Origin: a virus
Reading direction: 5' to 3' (one strand)
IMG/VR virus record: IMGVR_UViG_3300021168_000069
Span: 1 to 32,049 of that record
DNA: 32,049 nt
Below the pieces are notes generated by a model, which was not told the origin of the DNA, did not search any database, and was given only the letters and a program-made list of their open reading frames with translations. A program made the position numbers and the translations under genes. Shown piece after piece: positions 4,160 to 32,049 of the stretch. Every line of letters begins with the position of its first letter. The stretch's first letter is position 1.

Positions 4160-4546
4160 ATGTCAGTCTATACGCTTCCGAATAACCCAGTCACGAATGG
4201 CATTGTGGCGCTGGCTGGTGGTGCGCTCACTCCGCTCACGCCGTTGCTGTCAACGGGAATGAATGAGGTGAATACGGTGGTTACGACGGGTGACTCCGTT
4301 GTGATGCCGCCTGCTGTGATGGGGAGCAGTGTTTATGTGAATGCACAGAACACGGCGGCTGGGCTGTCCATGAAGATTGTGGCGCAGGCCAATCCGTTCA
4401 ACAATAATGCGCTGGATCAGTTTGTGGCGCATGGGTCGGTGGCGCTGGTTGCGGGTGCGACTGGGTTGGTGCTGCTGAATGGGCATGTGAGCCTGTTCAT
4501 TTGCACCACACAGGGTATCTGGAAGCAGGTCGCCGACAACGCATAA
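4160..4546 (+). CDS. Beta-rich virion-type protein, first of two tandem paralogues
   Basis: The 128-residue Val/Ala/Gly-rich product has 'NGIVALAGGALTPLTPL', 'EVNTVV..GDSVVMPPAV', 'ALDQFVAHGSVALVAG' and a C-terminus 'SLFICTTQGIWKQVADNA'. The next gene repeats this plan with about 40% identity by eye, including an almost identical last 12 residues. No signal peptide. The composition and position among tail genes suggest a decoration or fibre-associated protein, but I do not recognise a characterised family. AGAGAGGAA lies before the ATG. Confidence 0.65.
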   Translation: MSVYTLPNNPVTNGIVALAGGALTPLTPLLSTGMNEVNTVVTTGDSVVMPPAVMGSSVYVNAQNTAAGLSMKIVAQANPFNNNALDQFVAHGSVALVAGATGLVLLNGHVSLFICTTQGIWKQVADNA

Positions 4547-4582
4547 AATGTTTACGGGCTGGCCGATGAGATGTCTCTTAGG

Positions 4583-4611
4583 CATTCTCCTCGGCGAAGC
4601 CGAGGAGAATG
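4583..4611 (+). repeat. Perfect 13-bp hairpin, GC-GAA-GC apex, burying an SD
   Basis: Arms 4583-4595 and 4599-4611, loop GAA. The apex is GCGAAGC, a sequence known to form unusually stable DNA mini-hairpins. The 3' arm contains GAGGAG, the only Shine-Dalgarno for the ATG at 4616. It is intergenic. Confidence 0.93.
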
Positions 4612-4615
4612 ACTA

Positions 4616-5068
4616 ATGGCAAGGTCTCATCTGGCTTATTTGCCCTCTCTTCAGACGGGGAGAGGGTCGGGGTTGATAGATGCGACAGAGATGTCGAAGT
4701 TCTTCAACATGGTGCTGGGCTGCGTGAATGGTATTGTGGCTCATGCGGGCGGTGGAGTCGCTGCTGCGACTCCGCTCAATCTGGGGTTTAATGAGGTAGA
4801 TGTCTGCGCTACGGCGGCGGACTCCGTGGTGCTGCCACCGGCCATTATAAATGCCTGGAGCTGGGTTTATAATGGTGGTGCGGCAAGTATGAATGTGTTC
4901 AATCTGCAGAGCAATTCGCAGAATAACTCGCTGACGGATGTGATTATCCCGCACGGAGTTACGACACCGAATGCGGGGACGGCTGCTGTTGCGCTGGCTG
5001 CGGGGCATACGTCCCTGTTTGTGTGTATGACTGTGGGTGTGTGGAAGCAGGTCGCCGACTTCGCCTGA
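4616..5068 (+). CDS. Beta-rich virion-type protein, second tandem paralogue
   Basis: 150 residues. From about residue 38 it parallels the preceding gene: 'NGIVAHAGGGVAAATPL', 'EVDVCATAADSVVLPPAI', 'SLFVCMTVGVWKQVADFA'. An extra ~35-residue N-terminus contains 'TEMSKFFNMV'. The ATG at 4616 is chosen because GAGGAG ends 8 nt upstream, though that SD sits in the 3' arm of the hairpin at 4583-4611, so translation may be restrained until the hairpin opens. An internal ATG at 4691 is possible but has a weak SD. Function unknown; probably structural. Confidence 0.65.
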   Translation: MARSHLAYLPSLQTGRGSGLIDATEMSKFFNMVLGCVNGIVAHAGGGVAAATPLNLGFNEVDVCATAADSVVLPPAIINAWSWVYNGGAASMNVFNLQSNSQNNSLTDVIIPHGVTTPNAGTAAVALAAGHTSLFVCMTVGVWKQVADFA

Positions 5069-19721: not shown

Positions 19722-21260
19722 TCATCCTCCCATCAGTCGCTCCAGGCCTTTCGGCCTGGAGCGCCTGTCTTGTGTTCCCCTCCTCCACTTCATTAGTCCG
19801 GCCGGATTGTTTTCCGACTCAGGTGCCCAATTCCATCCTACTTTAGCAGCCCCCGGCGCCATATAAGCTCGTAGACTCTTCGAGTCTACGAGCTTAATGT
19901 CGCCTAACAAATCTAAGACGATAGTGACTATTTCGTCAATGTCGTCGTCTTCGCGAAACTGGAATGTGATGGAGTCGTGTGTCTGTGCCAATAGCTGGAT
20001 ACGGTTTTGGAGAGTTGCCCATACCTTCCAGAGCCACAAATTAGTCCTGTCGGCAGTCATTGATTGGGGAACGAATGCGATCGCCTCCCGCAGGGTCGCA
20101 TCGCTCCGCTGATCTCCGAAGAAGTCACGCTGTCTTCCAAACGGAGTTGTTATAGAGCCTTTTGTCTGGAGCCGGTCAGCTATCCAGTTCCAGTATTGGC
20201 GAAGTGCGGGATAGGCTGGCCTGATATTGTCGTGGCTACTGCCACGACAATATCTAGCCTGGAACTCCGCACATACCTTGATGGGGAGCTTTAGCACGCG
20301 GCTCATTGTCCAGGCGGTGCCGTTGTAGTTGGTGAGATGGCCTCCTCGCTTGGCCAAATCCCGCATAGTCCAGTCGCGGTAGACGGGGATGCGTTCAGCC
20401 AGCTGACGGCAACCAGCGGGATCGGCTGGCCAAGGCTGATCTGGCCATATAAGTCTGCAGTTGTTGGTGTGGAAGTCCCCCGACTCGCAAGAATCCAGGA
20501 GAGACCAATCCCCAAACAGGCAACCACAGATGAAACCCACGTCACGCGCCTCAACCTGTTCGAGGTCAATTGAGCAGAGCTTCCAGCCTGGATCTGAGAT
20601 AAAGACCCGTCTAAGTTCAGGAGCAATATTCTGAGCGTTGCCTCCCGTTCCGAGGACGGAAGTTGACGAAGATAATCGACCAGTCTCCGTACCGCCAATA
20701 TTGTAGCTCGTTCGGTGTCGTCCATCTTCGTCTATCTCCTCCGTCAAAACATCCAACTGCTTGTAGAAGTCGCGGCATGAAAGGATAAGAGAGACCAGCG
20801 GACGAGCATACATATACTCATCTATCTTCTCCAGGGCCTCCCGATTAACCGACAGCCGTCTTTCGCCTTTGAAGGAGAGCCAGATCTCTGGGATTTTCAT
20901 AGTCTTATAGAAGAACTCGGACAGCTGGGTGTGAGAGCGGGGGTTGAGACTCTTGCCCCAGATAGGCTGAGCTAGCTCGTCCAGCACCATGCGGGACTCT
21001 TGCACCTTCTTTTTAACTTGAAGCTCCATACGGTGCCGATCCAGTCCATCGACGAGGAAGCCGTGAAGAGCCATCTCCAGGAGAGGAGCTTGAAGCGCCC
21101 GCTCAAAGGAGTAGATGGGCTCTGCTCCGCCCGGATGCTCCCGATTAATATTCTCAAGGATCTCCAGGGTGAGCATGGAGTCGAGCGCACAATAGGTCTG
21201 ATGCTGCTCCTCAATATTCAGTTTGCCAGGTTCTATTGCGGCTGTCTGGATAATTGGCAT
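19722..21260 (-). CDS. Family A DNA polymerase, polymerase-domain half of a split gene
   Basis: 512 residues. Residues 23-27 (YCALD) are exonuclease motif III (YxxxD); motifs I and II are on the ORF upstream (21650-22816). Polymerase motifs: 'TETGRLSSS' (191-199), motif A 'CSIDLEQVEARD' with catalytic D232, motif B R300...K304...Y312, motif C HDS (428-430). Odd points: HDS where Pol I has HDE, Y-N-G instead of Y-G in motif B, and His at the E. coli F762 position. The ATG at 21260 follows the DUF1937 stop by 7 nt with no good SD, so translation is probably coupled. With the upstream ORF it would rebuild one exonuclease-polymerase. Three coding hairpins fall in loops or the tail. Confidence 0.88.
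   Translation of the reverse strand: MPIIQTAAIEPGKLNIEEQHQTYCALDSMLTLEILENINREHPGGAEPIYSFERALQAPLLEMALHGFLVDGLDRHRMELQVKKKVQESRMVLDELAQPIWGKSLNPRSHTQLSEFFYKTMKIPEIWLSFKGERRLSVNREALEKIDEYMYARPLVSLILSCRDFYKQLDVLTEEIDEDGRHRTSYNIGGTETGRLSSSTSVLGTGGNAQNIAPELRRVFISDPGWKLCSIDLEQVEARDVGFICGCLFGDWSLLDSCESGDFHTNNCRLIWPDQPWPADPAGCRQLAERIPVYRDWTMRDLAKRGGHLTNYNGTAWTMSRVLKLPIKVCAEFQARYCRGSSHDNIRPAYPALRQYWNWIADRLQTKGSITTPFGRQRDFFGDQRSDATLREAIAFVPQSMTADRTNLWLWKVWATLQNRIQLLAQTHDSITFQFREDDDIDEIVTIVLDLLGDIKLVDSKSLRAYMAPGAAKVGWNWAPESENNPAGLMKWRRGTQDRRSRPKGLERLMGG
19738..19763 (-). repeat. Perfect 11-bp coding hairpin, GAAA loop on the sense strand
   Basis: Arms 19738-19748 and 19753-19763. It encodes residues 500-508 of the polymerase, its C-terminal tail. 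The sense-strand loop is a GNRA-type GAAA. Confidence 0.9.
19864..19896 (-). repeat. Perfect 15-bp coding hairpin, GAA loop on the sense strand
   Basis: Arms 19864-19878 and 19882-19896; polymerase residues 455-466, after motif C. Confidence 0.95.
20223..20254 (-). repeat. Perfect 14-bp coding hairpin, 4-nt loop
   Basis: Arms 20223-20236 and 20241-20254 (loop TACT on +). It encodes polymerase residues 336-346, between motifs B and C; outer bases 20213-20217 and 20256-20260 could extend the pairing. Confidence 0.93.
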
Positions 21261-21267
21261 TAAAATC

Positions 21268-21657
21268 TCAGATCATGCGAGTCCATACGAGGTTTACTTC
21301 AGTCCCTTGATAGATTGGCGGATCGAGTGCCCAGACAGGGACTCCTTTGTCTCTGCTAAAATTAAGCTCGCTCCTGACTCCTTTTGAGTCAGCCCAATTT
21401 GTAAGACATAGGAGAATTACTCCTCTAGATGGGAGTATCATATTGTAGTTATGTTCATTCCAGAAGGCTGCATTAGTTGGCATATTAAACACTTGGGCTA
21501 CCATATGATAATGGACTATTGGAGAGTATATGGTGAGCTTGGCTCGCGTCAAAACAGAGACAGCATTCAAGTGTTGCTGGTAACGCTCCTCTATGTTGTC
21601 GGAGTATGGACCGGCCATATACCAGTAGCCATCTCCGGGTGTTGGCTGATCATTCAT
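21268..21657 (-). CDS. DUF1937 protein nested between the two polymerase halves
   Basis: 129 residues. 'YMAGPYSDNIEERYQQHLNA' has the AGPYS-x(n)-R-x-x-x-x-N opening of the DUF1937 group, followed by 'IYSPIVHYH', 'FWNEHNYNMI' and 'GVRSELNFSRDKGVPVWAL'. These proteins resemble nucleoside 2-deoxyribosyltransferases, which make or break N-glycosidic bonds of nucleosides; the activity of DUF1937 itself is not established to my knowledge. Its SD (AAAGGAG) and ATG lie inside the last codons of the UDG-exonuclease ORF (8-base overlap), and its stop is 7 nt before the polymerase ATG. It thus interrupts the polymerase between exonuclease motifs II and III. Confidence 0.75.
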   Translation of the reverse strand: MNDQPTPGDGYWYMAGPYSDNIEERYQQHLNAVSVLTRAKLTIYSPIVHYHMVAQVFNMPTNAAFWNEHNYNMILPSRGVILLCLTNWADSKGVRSELNFSRDKGVPVWALDPPIYQGTEVNLVWTRMI

Positions 21658-22816
21658 CTAATTTTTCTCCTTTGACTTTGGTTGTGCGGTGTCGGCCAAG
21701 CAGTTTCCAGCTGGCCTCATTGGTGTAGATGGAGCCAAGGAAACCGAGACTCTTCTGCACTTCGGGGTAGAGGGAATGGTGCAGGAGCATAGTGTCTTCG
21801 CGCGCATTGCGCAGGTTGAAGCCCATGCGGATTAGATACTGCATGTCATACATACCGTTCTGGAAGAGGAGTGGGCGGCCACCCGTTAAGAGTTCATGGA
21901 CATAGAACCAGGCAGTCATTTCTTCTTCTATTGTTGGCCAGTAGTTGCGGGTACCGTCTTTAGATCGGAAAGGGATTGTGAGGGCGGAGGTAGGTGAGTC
22001 TGCGAAACTGATACAGGTGATTAAAGGGCCTGCTGTTTCACAATCCACTCCAAGCATGGCTGTTAAGCTGTTTTTAGATTGGAGGTACCACTCTCTTATC
22101 TCTGAGATGGTGGGGTTGATAAGGACTTGTCGAGTAGGCCGGACAACGTCAGGCCGCTCGGACTCTCGCCAAGCCTTGATGAAGTCGGCCATGCAGATAA
22201 TGCGCCACTCTCGTCTCCCTCTCCCAGGTAAGACGGCGGAGGGGTGATAGGTAGGGAGAACTTTCACTCCCGGAGCAACCCCTCCTGACGAACCCACTGT
22301 CGCAGTGCCACGGACATTGCTAATGTCAGTTCTTCCAAGGAGGGCCCAGGTCGCGATAGCTCCAGCCGCCACGATACAGACTGGTCTGGCTTGTTCAATT
22401 TCGGCTCGGAGACGGTCAAGCTCACCCAGATACTGCGGCTTGAGGTAGGCAAGCCTCCCTCTTCCGAGTGGGGGAATTGCAGGATAGTCATCTGGAAGCT
22501 CCTTCTTTGAACAGAGGAGGAAGTCAAAGTCGTTGTTTGGCGGACGGAGGGCGGCCACGTTGGTAAAGGCAATCCCGGCCTCTTTGGCCCACACGTTCCG
22601 CATCTGGTGCCATCCAGAGCGCCCAAGTGCAAAGCGGAAGTCAGCCGTATAACGGTTATTCGGGATGGTCTCGATCAGGATGCGGGATAGCTCGGCTCCG
22701 GCTACCCCGCAGAATGGGATGCCGCCGGATTGCTCCTCGGACTCACCCCACGCCTCGCCAACCACGACAAGTCGTGGTTGGCGAGAACCAGCCCATCCGA
22801 CAAACGGAGGCCTCAT
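21650..22816 (-). CDS. UDG-like domain fused to 3'-5' exonuclease motifs I-II of the split polymerase
   Basis: 388 residues. Residues 16-210 are a uracil-DNA glycosylase superfamily domain of the family 4/5 type: 'VVVGEAWGE' and 'GGIPFCGVAG' (motif 1), 'FTNVAALRPP' (85-93), and 'TYHPSAVL' (189-196, motif 3). The N-terminal CxxC pair of family 4 Fe-S enzymes is absent. From about 230 begins a DnaQ-like exonuclease: motif I D258-C-E260, motif II N320...D324. The frame stops at 388, before motif III, which is on the polymerase ORF. UDG-like N-termini are known on some phage family A polymerases, e.g. SPO1. The ATG lies inside the 19-bp hairpin at 22813-22853 and lacks a clear SD. Confidence 0.82.
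   Translation of the reverse strand: MRPPFVGWAGSRQPRLVVVGEAWGESEEQSGGIPFCGVAGAELSRILIETIPNNRYTADFRFALGRSGWHQMRNVWAKEAGIAFTNVAALRPPNNDFDFLLCSKKELPDDYPAIPPLGRGRLAYLKPQYLGELDRLRAEIEQARPVCIVAAGAIATWALLGRTDISNVRGTATVGSSGGVAPGVKVLPTYHPSAVLPGRGRREWRIICMADFIKAWRESERPDVVRPTRQVLINPTISEIREWYLQSKNSLTAMLGVDCETAGPLITCISFADSPTSALTIPFRSKDGTRNYWPTIEEEMTAWFYVHELLTGGRPLLFQNGMYDMQYLIRMGFNLRNAREDTMLLHHSLYPEVQKSLGFLGSIYTNEASWKLLGRHRTTKVKGEKLDE
22754..22785 (-). repeat. Perfect 14-bp coding hairpin, 4-nt loop
   Basis: Arms 22754-22767 and 22772-22785 (loop CAAG on +). It encodes residues 11-21 of the UDG-exonuclease protein, at the entry of its first strand. Confidence 0.94.
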
Positions 22817-22853
22817 GAGTCAAGTTCCCGCAAAGCGGGAACTTGACTCATGA
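22813..22853 (-). repeat. Perfect 19-bp hairpin spanning a stop and a start codon
   Basis: Arms 22813-22831 and 22835-22853, loop AAA on + (TTT on sense), GC-NNN-GC apex. It encodes the last 11 residues and stop of the ParB-methyltransferase and contains the ATG of the UDG-exonuclease gene. No T-run follows on either strand. Confidence 0.96.
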
Positions 22854-24241
22854 TGGGAGAGCGACTCCATTACACGGGAGTTGAGAAGGGCTTCGCGGGC
22901 AACAGACACGAAGCGCTCCTCAATTTCTAAGCCGAGGACGTTCTGTGGGAGAGCGCCAAGACTTTCGGCTGCGCGGAGGGAGGAGGCGGCTCCGCAGGTG
23001 GGGTCTAGGAAACGGGTGTTTCCATCAACGAGGGCTGCGAAAAAATGGCGAAGCATAGGCTCTGGTTTACATGACGGATGCAGCTTGCGGTCGCCGGGAC
23101 CAGAGTAGGAGTCAGCAACAGTCCGAATGAGGGGACGGCGACCTCGGTAAGCCAGAAGGGCTGCTTCATAGGTGTGGCGGGGCCACCGTTGGCTGTCGCC
23201 AACGATACCTGAATTGTCGGATTTGTGCCAAATGAGTGGATATGGATAGAACTCAATGGAGGGGCCTTCCTGCTCAAAGAGTCGCATTGTTTTCAGAAGG
23301 ACTTCTGGCTTAGGACTGAGCCAGAACATTAGATGACCAAGTGGAGACAGCAGATGATCCAGATTTTTGACTAGGCACTCCGTGAGAGTCCAGTAGTCGG
23401 CGGCTTGGTCTGAATAGGCGCCTTCTTGATCTTCTGGTTTGAACTGGCCGGCTCCGTCGAAGACGTTTGCCCCATACGGGAAGTCGCAGTGGATCAGATT
23501 GAAAGAGATGCCTGTGTAGGTTGGTGCCCATTCGAGAAAATTCTCCTGCCTGATTGAGCGCTCCACGGCTGCTCGTGACCAGACAGGCGAGACAAGCTCG
23601 CCTGTCTGGTCAAGCACATGCACCTGAGTCTGCTGAGGGGTTACTACTCCTTGTAGGGGGGACGACTCGTCTGGCTTAGGTTGTGTTTGCACGATCATTG
23701 ATCGTGCAAACACAGCCATATCATTTATTTCTGTTTCGTCCTCGCGCTCTTTGCGCCGCCTTATCAGGTTGCGAGCCTCATTGATGTTAGTCGCCTTATT
23801 CACTCGCGGCTCTTTGAGATGGGCCGCCACAAGGAGGATGGTGGAGATGTAGCCTGCATCGATTGAGAGAGCCTCCGCTGTCATGCGCTGGTTCCAGGAG
23901 GGGTCGGCCTTCCCATAGAGGTAGTGGAGTTCGGCAATGGCTCGGGCGGAGTCCTGCCATGGGAGGTCTTTCCGCTTAACATTCTCTTCAAGCTCAATGA
24001 CTTTCAACTCGTCAGTGTTTAGGTCATCTACCCAGCGGACTGGAATGGTTGGAAGGTTAAGCGCCTTGAATGCTTCCCACCTGCGCTCACCCGCAATCAG
24101 CTGGTAGTCCTTAGTCACAATTATCGGGTTGATGAGGCCCACCCTCTTAATGCTGGCCTGGAGAGCGGGGTCCGGCTCTAGCTTCCGTCTTTGACGAGAG
24201 TCTCTTTTAACCCAGATGAGGGATAGTGCAATGTCAGGCAT
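22820..24241 (-). CDS. ParB-like domain fused to DNA methyltransferase
   Basis: 473 residues. Residues 1-160 are ParB/Srx-like: 'LIAGERRWEAF' (48-58, GERR box), 'VIELEENVKRKDLPW', then an HTH-like region. Residues 170-225 are a linker. Residues 240-450 are an adenine/cytosine-N methyltransferase of permuted order: motif IV D253-F-P-Y (variant of DPPY), then 'FLDPTCGAASSL' (motif I, SAM binding) and 'GLEIEERF'. It would methylate phage DNA, probably against host restriction, with the ParB part giving DNA contact or CTP-dependent loading (inferred). Two hairpins flank the linker and a third encodes the C-terminus. Only a weak SD (GAAGAG) precedes the ATG. Confidence 0.85.
   Translation of the reverse strand: MPDIALSLIWVKRDSRQRRKLEPDPALQASIKRVGLINPIIVTKDYQLIAGERRWEAFKALNLPTIPVRWVDDLNTDELKVIELEENVKRKDLPWQDSARAIAELHYLYGKADPSWNQRMTAEALSIDAGYISTILLVAAHLKEPRVNKATNINEARNLIRRRKEREDETEINDMAVFARSMIVQTQPKPDESSPLQGVVTPQQTQVHVLDQTGELVSPVWSRAAVERSIRQENFLEWAPTYTGISFNLIHCDFPYGANVFDGAGQFKPEDQEGAYSDQAADYWTLTECLVKNLDHLLSPLGHLMFWLSPKPEVLLKTMRLFEQEGPSIEFYPYPLIWHKSDNSGIVGDSQRWPRHTYEAALLAYRGRRPLIRTVADSYSGPGDRKLHPSCKPEPMLRHFFAALVDGNTRFLDPTCGAASSLRAAESLGALPQNVLGLEIEERFVSVAREALLNSRVMESLSHHESSSRFAGT
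23576..23612 (-). repeat. Perfect 16-bp coding hairpin, 5-nt loop
   Basis: Arms 23576-23591 and 23597-23612 (loop ACAAG on +). It encodes residues 210-222, the methyltransferase side of the linker in the ParB-methyltransferase. Confidence 0.95.
23682..23714 (-). repeat. Perfect 15-bp coding hairpin, ATT loop
   Basis: Arms 23682-23696 and 23700-23714. It encodes residues 176-187, the ParB side of the same linker. Confidence 0.95.
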
Positions 24242-29997: not shown

Positions 29998-30270
29998 TCA
30001 GTCATTTTTGAGTATCTCCATGAGCATTTTTCTCAGTCTCAGACCTTCCATCATGGAGATGAGGTCTGGATCGCCTGCTATGTCGATCATCTCTTCGTCA
30101 GTTAGGTTGCGCACTTGCATGTCGTCTGCATAAGCGCCGAGATGATGGCAGCCCATGCATATGGCGATGTCGCCTGGCTGAGGAGGGCGTTCATTGTCTG
30201 GCGTGGCACCAGCATTCAACAGCTGGTTGCAGTTGGGACAATGGGACTCTCTGTAGCGGTGGATGTCCAT
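29998..30270 (-). CDS. Zinc-ribbon-like small protein
   Basis: 90 residues. 'HCPNCNQLL' and, about 25 residues on, 'AICMGCHHLG' form two CxxC knuckles of a zinc ribbon; the rest is helical ('LTDEEMIDIAGDPDLISMME', 'LRLRKMLMEIL'). Proteins of this type recur in phage operons without known role. Its ATG overlaps the preceding stop (TAATG). Confidence 0.7.
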   Translation of the reverse strand: MDIHRYRESHCPNCNQLLNAGATPDNERPPQPGDIAICMGCHHLGAYADDMQVRNLTDEEMIDIAGDPDLISMMEGLRLRKMLMEILKND

Positions 30271-30527
30271 TATGGAAGCTCATCCTCATGAGTCGGAACA
30301 AGCTTTGCTTGTTCCGACTCAACGTGCTCCCACAGCTTCGCCGCGGTCTCACTCTGGAGGTAACGCTCCTCGCGGAGCTGGAGGACTATGCGGTGGAGCA
30401 TTTCGCGCACCCAGGAGCCGGGAGGCAAGCGGGTGCGCGATGCTACATGATTTATGACAAAATCCCAGTCCTCATCGTAGAGCCATAAATGTCTACGAGA
30501 CTGCGGTCTTATAACTCTACGCACCAT
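30270..30527 (-). CDS. Small hypothetical protein, SD inside a 20-bp hairpin
   Basis: 85 residues. 'RRHLWLYDEDWDFVINHVAS' and 'GSWVREMLHRIVLQLREERY' suggest a strand followed by helices; the 'LYDEDWDFVINH...GSWVREML' arrangement is reminiscent of ribbon-helix-helix proteins but not convincing. The ATG at 30527 is preceded by AAGGAG 6 nt upstream, and this SD is the end of the 3' arm of the hairpin at 30534-30576. The C-terminal tail (residues 69-80) is encoded by another 15-bp hairpin. Confidence 0.65.
   Translation of the reverse strand: MVRRVIRPQSRRHLWLYDEDWDFVINHVASRTRLPPGSWVREMLHRIVLQLREERYLQSETAAKLWEHVESEQAKLVPTHEDELP
30289..30321 (-). repeat. Perfect 15-bp coding hairpin, GC-NNN-GC apex
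   Basis: Arms 30289-30303 and 30307-30321, loop TTT on + (AAA on sense). It encodes the Glu/Gln/Lys-rich tail of the 30270 gene. Confidence 0.95.
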
Positions 30528-30533
30528 CGGCTA

Positions 30534-30784
30534 CTCCTTTGCCATCCCCGCCCAATGGGCGGGGATGGCAAAGGAGGGCCGAGTCCTAGAGGTTGCGGCC
30601 ATGAGGACTCGGCCCTGGCTTGGCCTTGCGGCCAAGCCCCTTAATCAGGTCGGCGAACTTGTTTCGCCGACCTGACCCGTCGCAGTCCCAACCGGGGGGA
30701 TCGTGGGCTGCGACTATGAGGTGTGGCTTGACGATCACACCTCAATCTTGAAGTTTGATCGAGCATTGCTCGATCAAACTTCAA
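30534..30784 (-). repeat. Array of seven consecutive hairpins in a non-coding gap
   Basis: In order: 30534-30576 (20 bp, loop AAT), 30575-30616 (13 bp, 16-nt loop, sharing 2 bases), 30617-30638 (9 bp, TTGC), 30645-30675 (13 bp, CTTGT), 30679-30714 (11 bp with a bulge, 13-nt loop), 30717-30744 (9 bp, 10-nt loop), 30748-30784 (17 bp, loop ATT, GC-NNN-GC apex). Almost every base is in a stem or loop. The last one contains the stop of the 30781 ORF and the first holds the SD of the 30270 gene in its sense 3' arm. No tRNA fold or gene was seen. Confidence 0.92.
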
Positions 30785-31011
30785 ACCTCAATCACAAAGA
30801 CGCGCCACAGTCCGATGAGGGTGAAGATATGACCTGGAACTGATAAGATGTCATAGGCCAAACCATTCTGGAGGATGTGGCGCGCAAACAACGCTAAGAG
30901 AAGAGCAGCTGCGCCGATGGTTAGAAAATCGAACGTAGACCAGCTGCGGAACGGCCTCGATAGAAGGCGGCAAGCCCCATTAAGCCAAACCCAGTGAGGA
31001 GCATTGCCCAT
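30781..31011 (-). CDS. Possible small membrane protein overlapping the PEP-CTERM gene
   Basis: 76 residues in another frame, sharing 91 bases with the 3' end of the PEP-CTERM gene. The overlapped part is basic and Trp-rich; beyond it 'FLTIGAAALLLALFARHIL' is a clear membrane helix, and 'GHIFTLIGLWRVFVIEV' a weaker second one. GGAG stands 8 nt before the ATG at 31011. The free part past 30921 is protein-like, which supports reality, but such overlap is unusual for this operon, and a late alternative start cannot be excluded. Function unknown. Confidence 0.45.
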   Translation of the reverse strand: MGNAPHWVWLNGACRLLSRPFRSWSTFDFLTIGAAALLLALFARHILQNGLAYDILSVPGHIFTLIGLWRVFVIEV

Positions 31012-31577
31012 GTAGAAGGCTCCGGAACGTTGGTCGTCAATTGGGCCGAACCTCCGAACGACTGACGAGCTGCCGTAAAGTCCACAGCGAACTGGATCTC
31101 GTCTGAAGTGAACGGACCAGTTGCCGCCGAGACGGGTCCGAAAGAGCCGTCAAGCAGCGCTACTGGGAAGGTATGGGTGGCGAGGAGCCCTCCGTTGGCG
31201 AACGTGCTCTCAGTGGTTGGGCCGGGATCGTTGGTCAGCCCATTAACCGTGAAGGTTGACAGGGTATTGCCGAGTCCGGTGATAGCGCTTTGCAGAATGT
31301 CCACTGTTAGGGTGTGTGAGCCGGTGAAGCCTGCCGAGGCCGTAGCGTCCAGAGTGACGCTGGAGAGGTCGGCGTTCGGTAGGATCGGCGAGCCCTGGGC
31401 GGCGATGGTGATGTTAGCGAAGTTCGCGTCATTGGCTGTCAGCGAGGCTGCGCCGGTTGTGATCCCCGAGATGTTATCGATCAAAGTCCCATTGTCGAAG
31501 ACTTCGATCTGAAGAGTTGCCACGGCGGGGGCAAGTCCCGCTGCAAGGAAGGTTGAGGCTAGTAGGAGTTTTCTCAT
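30921..31577 (-). CDS. Secreted PEP-CTERM protein (phage cargo)
   Basis: 218 residues. A Sec signal peptide 'MRKLLLASTFLAAGLAPAVA' (1-20) leads a Thr/Ala/Asn-rich beta domain. The end has the full PEP-CTERM tripartite signal: P185-E-P187 in VPEPSTW, a hydrophobic segment 'AMLLTGFGLMGLAAF' and basic YRGR, plus a 9-residue extra tail. In bacteria with exosortase/EPS systems such proteins are exported and processed at the outer surface. The WAMLLxGF form is typical of alphaproteobacteria. Here it would need the host exosortase. It has its own sigma70-like promoter (31617-31652) and an RHH gene upstream. Lysogenic or surface-altering expression is inferred, not shown. Confidence 0.82.
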   Translation of the reverse strand: MRKLLLASTFLAAGLAPAVATLQIEVFDNGTLIDNISGITTGAASLTANDANFANITIAAQGSPILPNADLSSVTLDATASAGFTGSHTLTVDILQSAITGLGNTLSTFTVNGLTNDPGPTTESTFANGGLLATHTFPVALLDGSFGPVSAATGPFTSDEIQFAVDFTAARQSFGGSAQLTTNVPEPSTWAMLLTGFGLMGLAAFYRGRSAAGLRSIF

Positions 31578-31616
31578 AAGACTGTCCGCCTGTTTTCGTT
31601 GAGACTGGTATTGTCC

Positions 31617-31652
31617 CGCCTTAATTTTGTCATATTCGGTGGGTCATGTCAA
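31617..31652 (-). promoter_or_regulatory. Sigma70-like promoter for the PEP-CTERM gene
   Basis: On the - strand, -35 TTGACA (31652-31647) is a perfect consensus, followed by 17 nt and CAAAAT (31629-31624; four of six matches). Transcription would start near 31617, giving a leader of about 40 nt before the ATG at 31577. The promoter lies just after the RHH gene stop (31665). Confidence 0.65.
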
Positions 31653-31664
31653 TGGGTTGATACA

Positions 31665-31856
31665 TTAACTTTTCGTAATGTACCGTTGGCGTTTGGTGTT
31701 TATGGCAGTCGGGCATTCTAAGTGGCGCTCGATTGCTACGATGATCTCCGTGTTGAGTGAACGTCCGCTGACTTGGGCGCGGAGCCTGATACGCTCGCGC
31801 AATCCAGCGGGTAGATGCAGCATGTATTGGTCGTCACCTCTGCTCGCCATGCTCAT
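31665..31856 (-). CDS. Arc-type ribbon-helix-helix DNA-binding protein
   Basis: 63 residues from the ATG at 31856, which overlaps the preceding stop (ATGA); the longer in-frame opening is not used. 'DDQYMLHLPAGLRERIRLRA' gives the DNA-contacting strand (QYMLHLP) and helix 1, then 'GRSLNTEIIVAIERHLE' the N-S/L-x-x-E-I-I turn and helix 2 of Arc/Mnt-like repressors (S-x-N-x-E-I-x-x-x-L/I). The end is basic. Arc-like proteins bind as dimers of dimers; being next to the PEP-CTERM promoter, it is the natural candidate regulator of it. Confidence 0.82.
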   Translation of the reverse strand: MSMASRGDDQYMLHLPAGLRERIRLRAQVSGRSLNTEIIVAIERHLECPTAINTKRQRYITKS

Positions 31857-32047
31857 TTGACTGTCCTTAGGAAGTAACGCCAGGCATCTGCTTCGTAGTT
31901 CCAATCCACTCGCTTAGTCTTGTGGTGTTCCAAGGAGTAGGGCGGTTCATCAGGAGACGAACTCTGTTCGTCTCCTGATGACCCACCATTGGAATTTCCA
32001 TCACATGCCAATTCATGCTGCTTGTGCGGCGGGCAGATGATAGTGCA
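31853..32047 (-). CDS. Small hypothetical protein, 5' part outside window
   Basis: Open frame from the window edge (last full codon at 32047) to a TGA at 31853-31855, 64 residues visible. 'CTIICPPHKQHELACDG' is followed by a Ser/Asp/Glu-rich linker and then 'VDWNYEADAWRYFLRTVK', a Trp/Tyr-rich helix. The linker residues 23-34 are encoded by the hairpin at 31947-31981. The stop overlaps the RHH start as ATGA, which supports the frame. Not recognised. Confidence 0.6.
   Translation of the reverse strand, partial: CTIICPPHKQHELACDGNSNGGSSGDEQSSSPDEPPYSLEHHKTKRVDWNYEADAWRYFLRTVK
31947..31981 (-). repeat. Perfect 16-bp coding hairpin, TCT loop
   Basis: Arms 31947-31962 and 31966-31981. It encodes a Ser/Asp/Glu-rich linker of the partial gene, showing that the hairpin family continues to the window edge. 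Confidence 0.94.
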
Positions 32048-32049
32048 TT

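Follow-up and report, generated by a model that had tools for sequence, protein, structure and literature searches.

What makes seven hairpins follow one another in a single intergenic gap of a phage genome, and what keeps them there? The gap lies at 30534-30784 of the window, by which we mean the whole 32,049-nt stretch of viral DNA analysed (IMG/VR record IMGVR_UViG_3300021168_000069; W in comparisons). The seven successive hairpins (H1 to H7) noted in a preliminary description of the sequence are confirmed, with 237 of the 251 bases inside hairpins and two bases common to H1 and H2. RNA folding of the array is more stable than that of every shuffled sequence on either strand (z = -13.2 on the + strand and -14.5 on the - strand), and the gap holds no large ORF, that is, it is non-coding. 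It does, as described, separate the PEP-CTERM/ribbon-helix-helix section from ORF 30270-30527, all on the - strand (Table 1). The same hairpins recur in strains of the window species assembled from other samples (A2, A3, L185 and L187), as do those of relative B (in L189 and L190), so that an assembly or amplification artefact is unlikely.

The array, its neighbours and its conservation

Table 1 Features of the window, in order of position (B, C and D, relatives of the window species; SD, Shine-Dalgarno).
Feature	Position	Strand	Remarks
Late-region start-codon hairpin	4578..4616	+	TTAG, G.A mismatch, GAA loop; GGAG in 3' arm; foot at ATG
15-bp hairpin within DNA polymerase A gene	19864..19896	-	Kept in B and D, with paired changes
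14-bp hairpin within DNA polymerase A gene	20223..20254	-	
19-bp hairpin	22813..22853	-	Across stop/start junction of two genes
ORF, 85 aa	30270..30527	-	Initiation region buried in H1; no family match
SD AAAGGAG	30534..30540	-	6 nt before ATG 30525-30527; paired in H1
H1, perfect 21-bp hairpin	30534..30576	-	3' arm (mRNA sense) holds SD AAAGGAG of ORF 30270-30527
H2, 12-13-bp hairpin	30575..30616	-	GGGCCGAGTCCT..AGGACTCGGCCC, CCGCAACCTC in loop; kept in B and C
H3, 9-bp hairpin	30617..30638	-	~24-nt insertion found in window only
H4, 13-bp hairpin	30645..30675	-	ACAAG loop
H5, hairpin with 10-bp arms	30679..30714	-	GTCGCAG..CTGCGAC, one bulge; kept in B and C
H6, 9-bp hairpin	30717..30744	-	Window-only segment
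Direct repeat GATTGAGGT	30739..30747	-	After H7 in mRNA sense
H7, perfect 18-bp hairpin	30748..30784	-	Window only; between perfect 9-bp direct repeats
Direct repeat GATTGAGGT	30785..30793	-	Before H7 in mRNA sense
PEP-CTERM protein gene	30921..31577	-	PF07589; upstream of array
Sigma-70-like promoter	31624..31652	-	TTGACA-17-CAAAAT, extended -10; before PEP-CTERM gene
Ribbon-helix-helix (Arc-like) gene	31665..31904	-	

To find relatives, we used the ParB-N/methyltransferase-like protein, DNA polymerase, PEP-CTERM protein, capsid and 85-aa ORF. Homologues of the 85-aa ORF were found in the window species, B and C only. The PEP-CTERM protein has relatives of 80-90% identity in dozens of otherwise different viral contigs with a G+C content from ~39% to 65%, and its gene has the look of phage cargo that is exchanged widely; at the same place B has a different PEP-CTERM allele, and a sequence similar to the sigma-70-like promoter is also present there. 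A search for promoters of the sigma-70 type found none inside the array.

Conservation of the array was read from a sense alignment of W, B and C, the latter being the two relatives in which the site exists. Structural conservation next to the same flanking genes is partial: H1, H2 and H5 are kept in both relatives and H4 in one, and H3, H6 and H7 in neither, the number of hairpins ranging from ~3 in C to 7 in the window. The outer CTCCTTT..AAAGGAG of H1 is retained in B and C, and its inner stem differs in all three species. H2 has one G.U pair in B, and its apex shares TGGCCGCAA with H3. At the site of H4, B has a hairpin with a TCAGG/CCTGA foot and another inner stem; C has no hairpin there. 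H5 shows four G.U cells and two two-sided changes across the alignment, and in B and C the PEP-CTERM stop codon lies inside or adjoins its 5' arm. A structured RNA, one of the functions first proposed, is supported by this kept core, by the wobble and paired changes of H5, and by the clustering of the wider set at gene starts described below.

Among the other early proposals, a transcription barrier or a replication or packaging site would suit the dense structure of a non-coding gap adjoining a transcription unit with a promoter-like site of its own, and yet we consider them highly improbable. A barrier in the form of a terminator is unsupported: there is no U-tract, and a search of 30200-32049 for intrinsic terminators (a GC-rich stem followed by a U-tract) returned no match. 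A dedicated origin or packaging site is unlikely given that the hairpin number varies among relatives and that hairpins of the same kind occur throughout the genome.

The phage-wide set and its distribution

The array had also been described as the densest cluster of a phage-wide family, and this is borne out in number and form, with the qualification that the family is one of structures and has no common sequence: apart from loose sub-families, stems are unrelated between hairpins. A looser scan of the window (arm score of at least 9) finds 41 hairpins versus 1-4 in shuffled sequences, and stricter limits leave 26 near-perfect hairpins versus 0.1 expected. Relative B (43,311 bp), whose methyltransferase-like protein is 84% identical to that of the window, has 54 versus 0.2 expected. 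Counts are 6 and 7 in C and D, two contigs of one species at a distance similar to that of B, 9 in E, in which the methyltransferase-like protein is 60% identical, and 6 per 12 kb in L193. The protein at 22820-24241 of the window combines a ParB N-terminal domain with a DNA-methylase-like C-terminal part.

The median hairpin density is 0 across 181 viral loci of 8 kb or longer, and density is high in the W/B/C clade only. Isolates of similar size have none (Caulobacter phage Kuura) or one (Rhodoferax phage P26218); hence, the trait is confined to a small clade, whose members are uncultivated phages from soil. By DNA, the window has no match in the phage collection searched, and by DNA polymerase its closest known phage is Kuura, at 36% identity. 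An origin of the trait in host genomes was considered and rejected: hairpins number 0.38 per 10 kb in genome contigs that match the PEP-CTERM protein, most of them alphaproteobacterial, and the trait is therefore no general feature of PEP-CTERM-bearing genomes.

Position, perfection and turnover

In ten contigs, 60 of 121 hairpins lie outside genes or across gene ends, in DNA that is 90% coding, and 61 lie entirely within genes. Genes were called with a simple caller of our own, which scores Shine-Dalgarno motifs and ignores hairpins. Relative to the 238 called genes, 15 hairpins have their 3' foot at -3..+2 of the start codon (1.1 expected), and another 15 have it 12-16 nt upstream (+12..+16), directly before the Shine-Dalgarno sequence (1.0 expected). 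A smaller excess is seen at +17..+22 (6 versus 1.1 expected), and the remaining distances are close to chance. When the foot is at the start codon, the Shine-Dalgarno sequence is usually within the 3' arm, and when it is at +12..+16 the hairpin often fills the space from the upstream stop codon to the Shine-Dalgarno sequence. H1 holds the Shine-Dalgarno sequence AAAGGAG in a stable helix, as expected of a hairpin that sequesters a ribosome-binding site, and 16 start-codon hairpins are listed in all. Hairpins at orthologous starts show no significant sharing between W and B (present in both at 4 starts, in one of the two at 3 and 8, and in neither at 12; p = 0.66). The hairpin at 22813-22853 has a related one in B and none in C or D.

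Within genes, pairing phases 1, 2 and 3 are represented by 30, 8 and 23 of the 61 hairpins, with no depletion of phase 3, which constrains the protein most, and some of these hairpins sit in variable tails and linkers. The DNA polymerase, which contains two of them, appears to be split in the window (19722-22816) into a gene for the N-terminal part, with a uracil-DNA-glycosylase domain, and a PolA gene for the C-terminal part; the small gene between the two halves is weakly similar to nucleoside 2-deoxyribosyltransferases. The undepleted phase 3, the use of variable tails and linkers, the insertions in gaps and the occurrence of perfect, dynamic hairpins both in and outside genes would all fit a by-product without function, in which an error-prone replication peculiar to the clade makes palindromes everywhere and these persist only where they are harmless, in gene tails, gaps and linkers, which is also the suspicion for nematomorph mitochondria. 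We nevertheless regard such a by-product as unlikely, because foot positions peak sharply twice at start codons, because the H1/H2/H5 core is kept in three species, and because paired changes preserve the PolA hairpin.

The stems are close to perfect. The 137 hairpins compared contain 1917 Watson-Crick pairs and 26 exceptions, and G.U is exactly as frequent as A.C (4 each), a comparison that outweighs the total pair count, since detection favours perfect stems. Stems with one exception number 15 when G.U is allowed and 16 in the mirror control with A.C; those with at least three exceptions number 14 versus 5, a weak sign in the opposite direction. Tolerance of G.U would be expected under RNA-level selection alone, and maintenance at the RNA level, as judged by wobble tolerance, is thus unsupported, given no excess of G.U over the A.C control. 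The pair asymmetry that template switching predicts is weakly present (1006 versus 911, p = 0.03).

Loops and some internal features recur. GAA, AAA, AGA, TAAA, CTTGT/ACAAG and TAC recur as loops, those of junction hairpins are mostly purine-rich on the mRNA strand (~38:8, a tally from the hairpin list), and some hairpins have RGTTTG..CAAACY arms in common. One sub-family, of the late-gene type, retains a G.A or A.G mismatch and a GAA loop; in another, found in A2, C and possibly B, an A.G mismatch and a GCG/CGC clamp come together with a UC/UC internal loop and a UAC loop. At A2 14223 (L178/L179), C 2538 and 2872 (L177) and B 38401 (L173) there are long hairpins in two parts, whose internal loops are alike and whose outer and inner stems vary, three of them with an apical UAC loop; from their sequences, they may represent an undescribed RNA motif. 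The recurrent loops and internal-loop sub-families suggest recognition by something, beyond a mutation process alone. A possible account, although not one we would expect to prevail, is therefore that the hairpins are selected RNA operators, that is, sites at which an RNA-binding protein or RNase of phage or host binds or processes the RNA and so controls its translation or stability. Recognition would be limited to the shape, the loop and a few bases of internal loops, so that stems can vary, and strong selection alone would produce the perfect stems and paired changes. The precise foot positions and the PolA hairpin kept with paired changes in W, B and D agree with selected operators, as do sub-families with conserved internal features and variable stems. 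Against selected operators stand G.U in no excess over A.C, the location of half of the hairpins (61/121) wholly within genes, and rapid gain and loss, with poor sharing of sites between W and B.

Turnover is visible between close relatives. At the 4578 junction, strains that are 99% identical elsewhere have different stems; the difference lies inside a recombination tract (4189-4615 of the window, in ~99% identical strains), in which the junction hairpin was swapped as an allele. In one hairpin of L192 and L193 the flanks are identical and a core of 7 bases is swapped; the central seven bases (L193 5504-5536 and L192 4760-4792) are CCAAGGG versus GGTTCCC, base-by-base complements that are not reversed, one in each contig. 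The hairpin at L193 8364 has a new 5' arm; its 3' arm, with the Shine-Dalgarno sequence, is for the most part also present in L192 and L196, where there is no hairpin. Of the arms of the W 20223 hairpin, one is identical to D at 13/14 positions and the other at 9/14, and C 9978 is a perfect 19-bp version of a palindrome that is mismatched in B. In a few clear cases, as read from these alignments, one arm is ancestral and the other a new reverse-complement copy. Many hairpins, though, are whole insertions with no source for either arm in the relative, and simple arm copying fails to cover them; several in-gene hairpins, such as those at W 22754 and 5930, are changed in both arms. With respect to the known marks of template-switch palindromes of the nematomorph type, the hairpins have perfect Watson-Crick arms and are gained, lost and replaced between close relatives, and a new arm copied from a pre-existing one is clear at L193 8364 and W 20223 but not in the whole insertions; the depletion of phase 3 in genes is missing.

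Insertion is also what mobile palindromic elements (REP-, RPE- or MITE-like) would bring, with duplication of the target and subsequent drift. H7 is bordered by a perfect direct repeat, in B two copies of ATGCGTAGA enclose a hairpin inserted close to the H1 start codon (L173 11754-11788), flanking repeats of at least 6 bp occur at 3 of 137 hairpins versus 0.6 expected, and the RGTTTG..CAAACY arms are common to some. Such elements are nevertheless very unlikely as a general source: they are copies of a common sequence, which is absent here, most hairpins have no flanking repeats, and no transposase was seen among the scanned proteins.

Origin, retention and comparison with known systems

We infer, with a probability of roughly one half, that the palindromes are made and kept perfect by template switching during replication and are retained at translation-initiation regions. 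During replication of the phage DNA, the nascent strand would change template within a short inverted repeat and copy the nearby arm as its reverse complement, by which a hairpin would be created or an imperfect one perfected or renewed. In a single step, template switching would account for stems that are perfect and unrelated, for paired changes and for turnover. Palindromes would survive chiefly where proteins stay undamaged and at the translation-initiation regions of polycistronic mRNA, in one of two positions. In the first, the 3' arm would contain the Shine-Dalgarno sequence and the foot would lie at the start codon; in the second, the hairpin would lie in the stretch from the upstream stop codon to the Shine-Dalgarno sequence. 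The array would then be the densest part of a genome-wide, fast-turning set in which each palindrome is written at the DNA level, with H5, H2 and H1 as the kept core between the PEP-CTERM gene and ORF 30270-30527 and H3, H4, H6 and H7 as extra palindromes of presumably recent origin.

At the array itself, the Shine-Dalgarno core of ORF 30270-30527 has a pairing probability of ~1 in the folded full leader, and RNA entering from the PEP-CTERM gene is predicted as likely to present a locked Shine-Dalgarno sequence to the ribosome. Read-through RNA from the PEP-CTERM promoter should therefore be poorly translated downstream, given that H1 pairs this sequence. In folding of an RNA that starts in the loop of H1 and lacks its 5' arm, the Shine-Dalgarno sequence is still largely paired, so that a simple release switch like that of T4 is unsupported, and no upstream reading frame through H1 was found. 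The start-codon positions and the kept core of the array nonetheless argue that part of the set may be functional at the mRNA level. A bolder version, which we hold to be rather doubtful, is that an active palindrome-writing process continually sets hairpins at gene starts, whatever their sequence, and renews them. Translation would then be gated genome-wide by structure alone, in a form rewritten within short evolutionary times, with a small set of loop motifs possibly read by a dedicated factor.

The question whether regulatory RNA structure can arise faster by template switching than by point mutation has so far been argued mainly on isolated events in RNA genes. In this clade perfect hairpins occur at about one per kilobase and turn over among close relatives, and the trait is absent from the known isolates compared; the clade offers a dense natural data set and a system open to testing. 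The pattern also suggests that phage translational control may take a form that keeps position and pairing rather than sequence.

Several known elements do not match the hairpins. Rfam gave no match at the gathering score and, in a relaxed search, only sub-threshold matches to generic hairpins, and no tRNA was found. A phage-encoded RNA polymerase, as hairpin promoters of the N4-like virion type would need, was not seen in a non-exhaustive scan of the proteins. Cluster K mycobacteriophages have ESAS inverted repeats directly upstream of Shine-Dalgarno-bearing sequence at many genes, with unknown function (PMC3203893), and the likeness lies in this position and in the restriction to one phage cluster. 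The arms of ESAS, however, follow a shared 17-bp consensus and accompany the 13-bp SAS GGGATAGGAGCCC, whereas the stems here have no consensus and SAS has no match with up to two mismatches. Rickettsia palindromic elements likewise lie in and between genes, but they are insertion elements that lose arm identity over time (PMC6649704), and the stems here are unrelated and stay perfect.

The dynamics are closest to those of nematomorph mitochondria, in which numerous perfect inverted repeats, also within genes and with almost no imperfect forms, are quickly gained and lost and template switching is suspected (PMC6649704). Here, by contrast, the genomes are those of phages, arms are 9-23 bp, half of the hairpins lie outside genes or across their ends, start codons are favoured and phase 3 is undepleted. 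That template switching creates and perfects RNA stems by reverse-complement copying is documented (PMC8794818), with the same perfecting of stems and paired changes without G.U intermediates; those events concern rRNA and microRNA genes, whereas the pattern here spans whole genomes. The combination of putative template-switch palindromes with start-codon placement was not found in the open-access literature searched. In function, the hairpins are probably most like the ribosome-binding-site hairpins of phage T4 genes e, soc, 49 and I-TevI (PMC3014915), in which, as in H1 and the other start-codon hairpins, the Shine-Dalgarno sequence is paired just before the start codon. The T4 hairpins are few, are not generated genome-wide and are escaped by late transcripts that lack the 5' strand; those of the present clade number in the dozens and are perfect.
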